From positions 1 to 54,466 of the forward strand of contig CALMRC010000200.1 of NCBI GenBank assembly GCA_937873275.1: a DNA stretch of 54,466 nucleotides, in the 5' to 3' direction. Position 1 is the stretch's first letter; every line of letters begins with the position of its first letter. Position numbers and translations under genes: made by a program. The notes under the pieces were generated by a model. That model ran no database searches. It worked only from the letters and a program-made list of their open reading frames with translations, and was not told where the DNA came from. The DNA is from an uncultured Spirochaetota bacterium (GTDB lineage: Bacteria > Spirochaetota > Spirochaetia > Treponematales > UBA12059). Positions 15,099 through 43,996 of the stretch are shown here, in pieces.

Positions 15099-17585
15099 AT
15101 GAGCGATTACCTTGACCCGAACAACGAGGAACTCCTCAAGGATTTTTTCGCCGAAGCCCAGAGCCAGGTGGATGCCCTGGAACAGAACATCCTGGTGCTG
15201 GAGAATGATCCGGGGAATCGGGACGCCGTGGACGAGATCTTCCGGGCGGCCCACACCCTCAAGGGCGGGGCCGCGACGGTGCAGATGATGGAGCTCCAGG
15301 GCTTCACCCACCTCGTGGAGGACGTCCTGGACGAGATCCGCTCGGACCGCCTCAAGGTGACCGAAGAGGCCGTGGACGTCCTGCTCAAGGCCATCGACGT
15401 GATCAAGGCCATGCTGGAAGCCCGCATGGAGGGGGCCGTCTACGACGGGGACGCCTCGGCGGTCCAGGAAGCCCTGGCCGGCTTCCTTCCCGGAGAGGCG
15501 CCCAAGGCCAAGGGGGGCGCCAAGGCGCCCGCGGCCAAGGCCCAGCCGACCGCCGCCGCGAAACCCGCGGCCGCGAAGCCCGCCGAGGGTGCCGTGCCGA
15601 CCCAACCGGTGTCGGCCGCGGGGCTCACGGAATACGAGATCCTGGAACTCAAGGAAGCGGCGGGCAAGGACCGCCGGGTATACCGCATAACCGTCGTCTT
15701 CGACGAGTCGAACCTCATGAAGACGGTCAGCGCCATCCACGCCTTCGCCGCCCTGCGGGACACGGGGACGGTGCTCAAGACCCATCCGGATTTCGAAAAA
15801 CTATACGAGGACCAGTTCTATCCCGAGGTGGACTACTACGTCGCCACCGAGAAGTCCGCCGAGGACCTGGACCGCAAGGCCCGCATCCCCGAGGTGGTCC
15901 GGGACGTCCGGGTCACGGAACTCACCTTCGAGGATGGCGGAAAAGCCGTCGGCGCTCCGGCAGTCCCGGCCGCGCGGGCCAAGGCGCCCTCCGCGGCCAA
16001 GCCCGTCGCCAAACCCTCCGCCCCGGCCTCCCCGGGGGCGGTCACCGAGGACGAGCTGGCCCGGGCTGTGGCCCGCAAGAACGCCGCTGCGTCCGCCCCG
16101 GCCCCGTCTCCCGCGGCTCCGGAACCCCCGGCCGCCGCGGCGGAGGAGCATCCCGAGGAGGCCGCCGAGGAAGGGGACCGGAAGGCCGCGGGGCCGAAGG
16201 TGCAGCAGGGTTCCATCCTCCGGGTGGATTCCCGCCGCATCGACAACCTCCTCAACCTCGTGTCCGAGACGGTCATCAACAAGGCAACCTTCAACCAGAT
16301 CAGCTCCCAGTTCTCGGAGCTCCAGGGCACCTTCACCGCGGCGCAGTCGGAGTTCCGGGACAAGCTCAAGGAATTCTTCGACGAGGTGAGCGAGGCCCTG
16401 GCCTCCGGAAAGACCGTCAAGGAGATGAAGAAGGCCCTCCAGGAGCGCTGGGCCGTCCTGGCCGCCGCCCACGATCCCTTCGAGGCGGAGTTCAAGTCCA
16501 CGGTGGCCAAGTTCCGGTCCACGGCCCAGAACCTGGGCCGGATCACCGGGGAGCTCCAGGAAGGGGTCATGCGCATCCGCATGGTGCCCATCAGCCAGAT
16601 CTTCAGCCGCTTCCCCCGGCTGGTCCGGGATCTCTCCAAGAGCCTGGCCAAGAAGGTCGACCTGGTCATCGAGGGCGAGGAGACGGAGCTGGACAAGTCG
16701 GTGATCGAGGACCTCCTGGATCCCCTCATGCACTCCGTCCGGAACGCCCTGGACCACGGCGTGGAAAGCCCCGAGGCCCGGTTGGCGGCCGGAAAGCCCG
16801 AGACGGGGACGGTGCACCTCCGGGCCTCCAACGAAGGCAACATGATCATCATCGAGATCGAGGACGACGGCAAGGGCATCGACGTGGAGGCCGTCAAGAA
16901 GAAGGCCGTGGAGCGGGGTCTCATCCATCCCAACAAGGTCCTCACGGACGTGGAGGCCTTCAACCTCATCTTCGAGGCCGGGTTCAGCACGGCCTCCGCG
17001 ATCACGAACATCTCGGGACGGGGAGTCGGCCTGGACGTGGTTAGGCGGCAGATCGAGAAGCTCAACGGCTCCGTGGCGGTCACCTCCAAACCCGGCAAGG
17101 GCACCAAGTTCAGCATCAAGCTTCCCCTGACCCTGGCGATCATCCAGGGCCTCCTGGTCCGGGTGGGCCGGGAGACCTATTCCATTCCCATCACCTCGGT
17201 CATCGAGTCCCACCGCATCAAGCCGGAAGAGATCCGTATGATCGACAACTACGAGGTCTTCAACGTCCGCAGCGACGTGGTCTCCCTCCTCCGCCTGGAC
17301 CGGCTCTTCCGGATACCTTCCTCCGGACAGAAGGAGTACAACTTCGTCGTCATCGTCGGGACCAACGAGAAGCGGGTGGGGCTCATGGTGGACTCCCTCA
17401 TCGGGGAGGAGGACGTGGTCATAAAGCCCCTGCGGGACCAGTACACGGCCTCCCCGGGGATCGCGGGCGCCTCGATCCTGGGGGACGGGTCCGTATGCCT
17501 CATCATCGACGTGAGCCAGCTCCTGGAGCTGGGGCTCAAGCGGGAAAAGGAAGAACGCCAGCGGCTGGAAGGAGCCGTCCGATGA
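15099..17585 (+). CDS. cheA: Chemotaxis histidine kinase CheA
   Basis: 828 residues with a complete CheA plan. P1 has the phospho-His in AAHTLKGG (~52). A CheY/CheX-binding-like domain lies at about 175-275. Two Ala/Pro/Lys-rich linkers follow, then P3 dimerisation (~370-500) and the ATPase P4 with N-box HSVRNALDHG (~548), G1 EDDGKGID (~588) and G2 SGRGVGLDVV (~640). A CheW-like P5 spans about 685-820. It phosphorylates CheY in response to receptors and so controls flagellar rotation. First gene of the operon cheA-cheW/R-cheX-cheY. There is no good SD sequence; a TATAAG lies 11 bases before the ATG. Confidence 0.97.
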   Translation: MSDYLDPNNEELLKDFFAEAQSQVDALEQNILVLENDPGNRDAVDEIFRAAHTLKGGAATVQMMELQGFTHLVEDVLDEIRSDRLKVTEEAVDVLLKAIDVIKAMLEARMEGAVYDGDASAVQEALAGFLPGEAPKAKGGAKAPAAKAQPTAAAKPAAAKPAEGAVPTQPVSAAGLTEYEILELKEAAGKDRRVYRITVVFDESNLMKTVSAIHAFAALRDTGTVLKTHPDFEKLYEDQFYPEVDYYVATEKSAEDLDRKARIPEVVRDVRVTELTFEDGGKAVGAPAVPAARAKAPSAAKPVAKPSAPASPGAVTEDELARAVARKNAAASAPAPSPAAPEPPAAAAEEHPEEAAEEGDRKAAGPKVQQGSILRVDSRRIDNLLNLVSETVINKATFNQISSQFSELQGTFTAAQSEFRDKLKEFFDEVSEALASGKTVKEMKKALQERWAVLAAAHDPFEAEFKSTVAKFRSTAQNLGRITGELQEGVMRIRMVPISQIFSRFPRLVRDLSKSLAKKVDLVIEGEETELDKSVIEDLLDPLMHSVRNALDHGVESPEARLAAGKPETGTVHLRASNEGNMIIIEIEDDGKGIDVEAVKKKAVERGLIHPNKVLTDVEAFNLIFEAGFSTASAITNISGRGVGLDVVRRQIEKLNGSVAVTSKPGKGTKFSIKLPLTLAIIQGLLVRVGRETYSIPITSVIESHRIKPEEIRMIDNYEVFNVRSDVVSLLRLDRLFRIPSSGQKEYNFVVIVGTNEKRVGLMVDSLIGEEDVVIKPLRDQYTASPGIAGASILGDGSVCLIIDVSQLLELGLKREKEERQRLEGAVR

Positions 17586-43514: not shown

Positions 43515-43582
43515 GGTGACCTCCGTTGGATGGGGAACCGCTGGGCGGTCTCATCGGCCGCCGGAGGCATCGTATCTCGCCG

Positions 43583-43680
43583 TGAAAGGCTTGTCAGCAT
43601 CCCGTCAAGGAAATAGCGCGCATCCCTGAGCGCTATTCCTCGCTGCCGCTCGGCGGCCGGAACCCTTCGAGTCCTACTCA
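43583..43680. repeat. Degenerate palindromic sequence next to the tRNA-tail cluster
   Basis: GGCTTGTCAGCATCCCGTCA at about 43588 resembles the end of the element at 40155-40291. It is followed by a hairpin AGGAAATAGCGC / GCGCTATTCCT (43608-43640, one bulged base). TTCGAGTCCTAC at 43666-43677 matches the T-arm end of the nearby initiator tRNA. Confidence 0.55.
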
Positions 43681-43910
43681 CCTTCCCGAAAACGAAAAGA
43701 GGCCACGCTTTTGCGTAGCCTCTTCAATAGCAGGGGTAGGACTCGCCTTCCGGACTCGGGCGTCGTGCCCTCGTCCTCCAGGCCGCCTCGCTGGCTCTCG
43801 CCGCATCCTGCGGCTCGCGCTCGCCAGCTCGCGACGCCATCTCGGTTCGAGTCCTACCCCTGCTCCTTCGAAACGAAAAAGGCCGCGCTTACGCGCGACC
43901 TTTTCGTTTC
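43666..43910. repeat. Tandem units of initiator-tRNA 3' tail copies flanking hairpins
   Basis: Two similar units lie side by side. Each has a plus-strand copy of the tRNA T-arm/acceptor end, then a hairpin, then a minus-strand copy. Unit 1: TTCGAGTCCTAC (43666), hairpin 43697-43724, then an 18-base copy (43728-43745) identical to the tRNA 3' end. Unit 2: a 21-base inverted copy (43844-43864), hairpin 43870-43910, then the real tRNA. Between them, nested inverted repeats GGCGTCG...CGACGCC, GCTGGC...GCCAGC and GCCGCA...TGCGGC span about 43768-43838. This and the preceding repeat fill the gap upstream of 43911. Confidence 0.8.
43870..43910 (-). terminator. Terminator hairpin of tRNA-fMet
   Basis: On the minus strand, directly after the tRNA, GAAACGAAAAGGTCGCGCG pairs with a CGCGGCCTTTTTCGTTTC-type arm across a 3-base loop. 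The U-run lies in the 3' arm, as at tRNA-Val. Confidence 0.8.
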
Positions 43911-43983
43911 TAGCAGGGGTAGGACTCGAACCTACGACCTCCGGGTTATGAGCCCGACGAGCTGCCAACTGCTCTACCCTGCG
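43911..43983 (-). tRNA. Initiator tRNA-fMet (anticodon CAT)
   Basis: Complete cloverleaf. Initiator marks: no Watson-Crick pair at the acceptor tip (C1 opposite U72), and three G-C pairs (GGG/CCC) next to the anticodon loop CTCATAA. D stem GAGC/GCTC, T stem GTAGG/CCTAC with loop TTCGAGT. Discriminator A; CCA not encoded. C1-U72 is less common than the usual C1-A72. Confidence 0.95.
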
Positions 43984-43996
43984 TCGATGTGAGAGT

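Follow-up and report, generated by a model that had tools for sequence, protein, structure and literature searches.

The window, the whole stretch of 54,466 nucleotides analysed here, belongs to a genome (G000) of 3.6 Mb in 200 contigs with 44 tRNAs. Behind its initiator tRNA lies an array composed of the following features:

43911..43983, minus strand: tRNA-fMet(CAT), the host gene (tRNA call, initiator features)
43870..43910, minus strand: terminator-like hairpin 1 (sequence and fold)
43844..43864, minus strand: antitail, a 21-nt inverted copy of tRNA nt 52-72, forming the 5' strand of P1 (repeat comparison and own-tRNA test)
43746..43843, minus strand: conserved element core, P2 plus P3 (R1 match and covariation over 115 distinct units)
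43790..43828, minus strand: hairpin P2 with the loop CAGGATG (fold and covariation)
43745..43784, minus strand: hairpin P3 with GGA/GGA and GA/GA internal loops and the loop CACGACG (fold and covariation)
43728..43745, minus strand: tail, an 18-nt direct copy of tRNA nt 56-73, forming the 3' strand of P1 (repeat comparison)
43688..43727, minus strand: terminator-like hairpin 2 (sequence; resembles terminator 1 at the fMet locus of the congener G149)
43666..43677, minus strand: second antitail of 12 nt (repeat comparison)
43590..43665, minus strand: degenerate second core (R1 19.6 bits, E 0.67; related to the fMet unit of G150, L250)

Read along the tRNA strand, the array runs from the tRNA through terminator 1, antitail, core of ~98 nt, tail, terminator 2, and second antitail to the degenerate second core. 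The original prediction had placed copies of the tRNA-fMet tail at 43728-43745, 43844-43864 and 43666-43677, and these positions were confirmed, with the direct copy of 18 nt and the inverted copies of 21 and 12 nt each 100% identical to the tRNA. Among the 44 tRNA tails of the genome, the 21-nt antitail scored 21 with its own tRNA and at most 15 with the others, and the folding stability of the locus against shuffles reached z = -11, which together exclude a chance origin of the tail copies. Of the proposed unit, "inverted tail - hairpin - tail", the flanking copies stood, but its centre is a two-hairpin core of ~100 nt rather than a terminator, the terminators being located between units. 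The interval 43666-43983 was correct as far as given; the degenerate second core at ~43590-43665 falls outside it and also belongs to the array. Comparison with the congeners revealed two histories in the array, with unit 1 resembling the fMet unit of G149 (L436) and the remnant unit 2 that of G150. Among known RNA families, the tRNA alone reached the gathering score in the window, and a weak BjrC68 match covered the tail and terminator.

Comparison of ten units indicated a common fold, in which antitail and tail pair to form P1, and the hairpins P2 and P3 contain GA/GA or GGA/GGA internal loops and are capped by loops such as CAGGATG; double changes were found at 24 of the 30 pairs (RNAalifold). 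A covariance model, R1, was built from ten units of the window's genome and matched the window unit at 43729-43865 with 116.8 bits (R1 was built partly from this unit). A further R1 match at window 16384-16510 (26.2 bits, E 0.05), where a tRNA is absent, was judged to be due to chance. When 118 units were aligned to R1, 91.5% of the cells were paired and all 30 pairs carried double changes, and the covariation score was 0.705 over 115 distinct units, compared with 0.20 after shuffling and at most 0.117 after sliding; as the alignment was fitted to R1 and its sequences are related, the size of this contrast is informative and the pair count is not. This conserved core, and not the terminator, defines the element.

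Such strong covariation favors an explanation by function, in which the unit is a tRNA trailer freed by tRNA-processing enzymes like RtT RNA and its presence is selected, for example through CsrA binding by CAGGA(U/A/C)G hairpins or through a switch in which the antitail alternates between tRNA and downstream tail. We regard a functional RNA, in any of these modes, as unlikely, although it deserves serious weight. The loop contains GGA in 102 of 118 P2 hairpins and in 77 of 118 P3 hairpins, and csrA was present in 10/10 genomes tested, both of which fit CsrA binding. However, the loop is CACGAnG in 36 of the 118 P3 hairpins, and the CAGGAnG loops remain only a lead because csrA occurs even in G156, which lacks elements, as in every other genome tested. 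A CsrA sponge RNA as a reading of its own was rejected, given the variable loops and ubiquitous csrA, and is kept only as a mode of the functional RNA. In some elements, the P2/P3 hairpins or loops also contain a second repeat family, GTCGTGCGCGATAGCGCACACGACAATC ... CTCTCGGCAAACGACGCGAAGCGGCG, which looks as though it inserts into hairpins (L252, L084, L082, L226 and L260, downstream of Glu-ttc, Lys-ttt, Ala-cgc and Leu-cag).

A DNA search of the window's genome found the core beside other tRNAs. Inspection of all 44 downstream regions revealed an inverted copy of the tRNA's own 3' end behind 14 tRNAs: fMet, Met, Leu-cag, Leu-gag, Leu-caa, Ser-gct, Glu-ctc, Cys, Pro-cgg, Pro-ggg, Ala-cgc, Ala-ggc, Val-tac, and Lys-ttt. 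At most of the 14, a direct tail copy follows further downstream, and at some the unit has grown into tandem units; tandem units are located at Leu-cag (L061), L188, and L365. In both this genome and G150, a congener with the same 44 tRNAs, the best fit of each antitail out of the 44 is its own tRNA, with ties only between sister tRNAs that share the tail or T-arm. Inside the tRNA-Ser operon, units lie between two tRNAs without any terminator and are therefore surely transcribed, a point in favor of the functional RNA. The view of a small element made partly of a tRNA tail, often with its terminator, and locally duplicated in tandem is thus supported, whereas spread by local duplication alone is contradicted by the occurrence of the element behind many tRNAs across much of the phylum.

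A check of other tRNAs and of relatives, which the original prediction had called for, was strongly positive: in addition to the 14 of 44 tRNAs, R1 copies were found in 22/23 genomes of the window's family (5-16 per genome). They occur in 11 of 149 genomes of the phylum, Treponema among the carriers, and in 0 of 21 control genomes outside it. A scan of ~85,000 species genomes with a core-only pattern yielded 77 stretches; those confirmed by R1 lie behind tRNAs in nearly every case, and most come from records that carry the name Spirochaetota, Treponema socranskii among them. A single R1 copy was also present in a record labelled Deltaproteobacteria, which may be binned wrongly. Both tail copies, direct and inverted, are present at 96 distinct tRNA loci of 23 tRNA kinds. 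All matches whose flanks were long enough to judge stand behind a tRNA, and no orphan copies away from tRNAs were found among the fetched partial matches, several of them in complete genomes, contig edges excepted. Phage and plasmid searches gave partial matches only, those listed covering ~1/4 of the query in its tRNA part. Because many units sit at contig ends (L201, L202, L206, L211, L214, L217, L220, and L223), it is probable that the elements interrupt assemblies and that their counts are too low.

Comparison of G000 and G150 revealed differences in occupancy at individual tRNAs. At tRNA-Glu-ttc, G000 is empty (tRNA, terminator, flank) while G150 is filled with antitail, core, and tail, forming one clean pair of empty and filled sites; the filled site carries a direct repeat of ~50 bp, from the T-loop to the terminator end. 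Conversely, elongator Met has an element in G000 and none in G150. Near-identical cores stand behind different tRNAs with arms that fit each host: the cores of Ser-gct in G000 and Ser-cga in G150 are ~94% alike, and those of Cys in G000 and Leu-gag in another genus ~83% alike. Persistence at a locus also occurs, much of it vertical, since the nearest core is at the same tRNA kind in another genome for 23 of 75 first units, against 4.3 expected. When tRNA and genome labels were counted by parsimony on the core tree, the result was only weakly informative, and no transfer was seen caught with its donor's arms. The presence of elements is patchy at orthologous tRNAs of congeners, which argues against a functional RNA.

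Direct repeats from the T-loop to the tRNA 3' end mark the classic crossover place of integrases, and the direct repeats of the element fall there, as do those of integrative elements and satellites targeted to tRNAs. In G150, phage-type tyrosine integrase-like genes start directly behind tRNA-Met (L225) and tRNA-Leu-gag (L263), two tRNAs that in G000 are followed by tail-flanked elements. Repeated integration, another early suggestion, could leave such repeats as scars of prophages or islands, but the conserved, covarying core of ~100 nt between the tail copies is left unexplained and refutes scars as the sole explanation. The units are, moreover, only ~140 nt long, gene-free and thus without an integrase inside, they carry an extra inverted copy, and the same core stands behind many tRNAs in many genera; we consider integration scars very improbable.

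Analysis of the arms revealed a perfect direct tail in 64 of 79 loci and a perfect antitail in 6, with antitail identity dropping from ~0.9 at the T-stem to 0.27 at nt 73. In 62 loci with a perfect tail, the next 35 nt are at least 90% identical in 20 and less than 70% identical in 24 (shuffled mean 55%). The former 20 represent recent duplication; in the latter 24 the flank has diverged, so that upkeep, by conversion or selection, acts on the tail alone. This near-perfect upkeep, even beside a diverged flank, is also in keeping with a functional RNA. The pairing statistics were compared with real tRNA acceptor stems from the same data, where the ratio of G-U to A-C is 93:2. It is 54:48 in the acceptor part of P1 and 44:14 in P2 plus P3, and the contrasts with tRNA stems have p values of 1e-14 and 3e-5, respectively, computed over non-independent cells. 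These ratios differ from those of tRNA helices, which weighs against a functional RNA and suggests that the complementarity arises or is preserved largely in the DNA; P3 retains some excess of G-U over A-C, which leaves room for an RNA role.

A ratio near 1 in the acceptor part of P1 also agrees with a purely mutational origin of the palindromes, by template switching at a terminator hairpin that copies the tRNA tail back without any element, and the tail, terminator, and antitail behind fMet indeed fold as a single long palindrome. The homologous core in all units refutes this as the sole cause, and the units inside the tRNA-Ser operon are free of terminators; as a full account it is highly improbable, although template switching may still explain how antitails are made or repaired.

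The DNA-level pairing signature would likewise be expected of recombination sites that fold from a single strand, as integron attC does, and are moved by an integron-type tyrosine recombinase. Like attC sites, the elements are imperfect palindromes that can fold as single strands, and integron integrases are common in carriers: TIGR02249 (E <= 1e-60) was found in 6/11 element-bearing and 7/138 element-free genomes of the phylum (Fisher p 5e-5, kinship uncorrected). The integrase is, however, neither necessary nor sufficient. G000 and G150 carry elements and no integron integrase above the family cut-off (a XerA-like relative scores 208 bits), three genomes of genus g3 and G156 have the integrase without elements, and E. 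coli, a control, has RtT without it. In addition, cassettes are absent, the T-loop reads GTTCRA and not GTTRRRY, and the repeat starts at nt ~54-57 rather than at a G/TTRRRY boundary (partly by inspection), so that we hold an attC-type origin to be improbable. Examples of integron integrases in element-bearing spirochaetes are G063:C13, G146:C1:1114598, G160:C4, and G157:C33.

Short intergenic palindromic repeats are also typical of REP/BIME sequences mobilised by RAYT (Y1) transposases, and a RAYT gene lies behind tRNA-Gly-tcc in both G000 and G150, in G150 directly behind it and beside an element remnant. No unit adjoins any other RAYT gene of G000 or G063; these genes have repeats of their own with GGGACAGAGCT, and most Treponema carriers and G130 gave no RAYT match at E 1e-10. 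With arms taken from the host tRNA, a strict tRNA location, and no linkage of the repeats to a RAYT gene, a RAYT-driven REP was rejected and appears hardly credible. Several RAYT genes are present per genome, most flanked by the short GGGACAGAGCT-containing repeats (L067:1303-1848, L259:846-1373, L301-L308), one of them behind tRNA-Gly-tcc. A retroviral-type primer-binding site was rejected as well, the antitail ending at nt 72-73 without a complement to CCA (by inspection).

The rtT repeats of E. coli were described in 1978 and 1991 and are usually treated as a feature of one operon. At E. coli tyrT (L375), RtT is present in four copies, of which three follow the second tRNA-Tyr gene as a tandem array and one separates it from the first; the copies consist of an inverted copy GGGGAAGGAT, a hairpin core, and a 19-nt tail AATCCTTCCCCCACCACCA (shown for the three tandem copies). 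The design of the spirochaete unit, for which the original prediction knew no described family, is thus shared with these repeats. Both RtT (RF00391, gene rttR) and the spirochaete units lie behind a tRNA, end in a direct copy of the tRNA 3' end that starts in the T-loop, pair an inverted copy with this tail around a hairpin core, and form tandem units (in spirochaetes, at the three loci named above). A tandem-GA helix, likewise shared, is reported in the structure of the tyrT repeat (PMC8250186). Two further studies describe the release of RtT RNA from the tyrT transcript and suggest a role in the stringent response (PMC4986893, PMC2965389), and this release favors a functional RNA.

Although trained on spirochaetes, R1 placed the four tyrT copies first within 3 kb (E ~0.1) and matched several gammaproteobacterial RtT units, with the best E of 2.8e-4 (the model being roughly calibrated). 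In the opposite direction, RF00391 gave no match to window 43580-43990 at E up to 10, nor any hit at its gathering threshold, and none to L061, L123, L091, L188, L365, and L184 at E up to 0.5. The spirochaete elements further differ from RtT in tails without CCA, antitails of up to 22 nt, a P3 loop of CAGGAnG, and a host range of 23 tRNA kinds with up to 14 tRNAs per genome. They are therefore probably a sister family of RtT by plan, outside RF00391 by the Rfam model. RF00391 matches were found in 30/185 Gammaproteobacteria genomes. RtT-type units with own-tail copies were also observed behind gammaproteobacterial tRNA-Ser, Gln, and Tyr, up to 8 per genome and not at tyrT alone (L376-L408). 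A search of the open-licence PMC literature found no paper describing the spirochaete elements, which may be described elsewhere.

On balance, we favor the interpretation that the units form a non-autonomous repeat family of ~140 nt behind tRNAs, with arms that derive from the host tRNA by copying, probably at the DNA level, and which is a spirochaetal sister group of RtT. The vertical persistence at loci, the upkeep of the tail beside decaying antitails, the G-U excess in P3, and the lack of an observed transfer with donor arms weigh against it. The arms span the host tRNA from T-loop nt ~54-57 to nt 72-73. In the proposed mechanism, a core would settle behind a new tRNA by pairing of its ends with conserved T-arm sequence, and the host tail would then be duplicated, in direct orientation at one end, often together with the terminator, and in inverted orientation at the other. 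This would leave the tRNA intact, and the direct repeats would permit tandem amplification and clean loss. The stems may persist chiefly in the form of DNA palindromes or folded single-stranded DNA and less as ordinary RNA helices, and a putative mobilising enzyme would work in trans. More tentatively, and with somewhat less than even confidence, the element could be a mobile hairpin without fixed termini, of which the core alone moves while both arms, direct and inverted, are rebuilt at each tRNA from the host tail.

The family also affects annotation, as the ends of contigs fall at several units and units are crossed by open frames. The E. coli rtT repeats would count as a branch of a multi-copy family whose members stand behind up to 1/3 of the tRNA genes of a genome, and the elements provide a testable case of ends taken from the target. 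If true, core-only mobility would represent an undescribed way to insert small elements at essential tRNA loci, common to spirochaetes and the gammaproteobacterial RtT.
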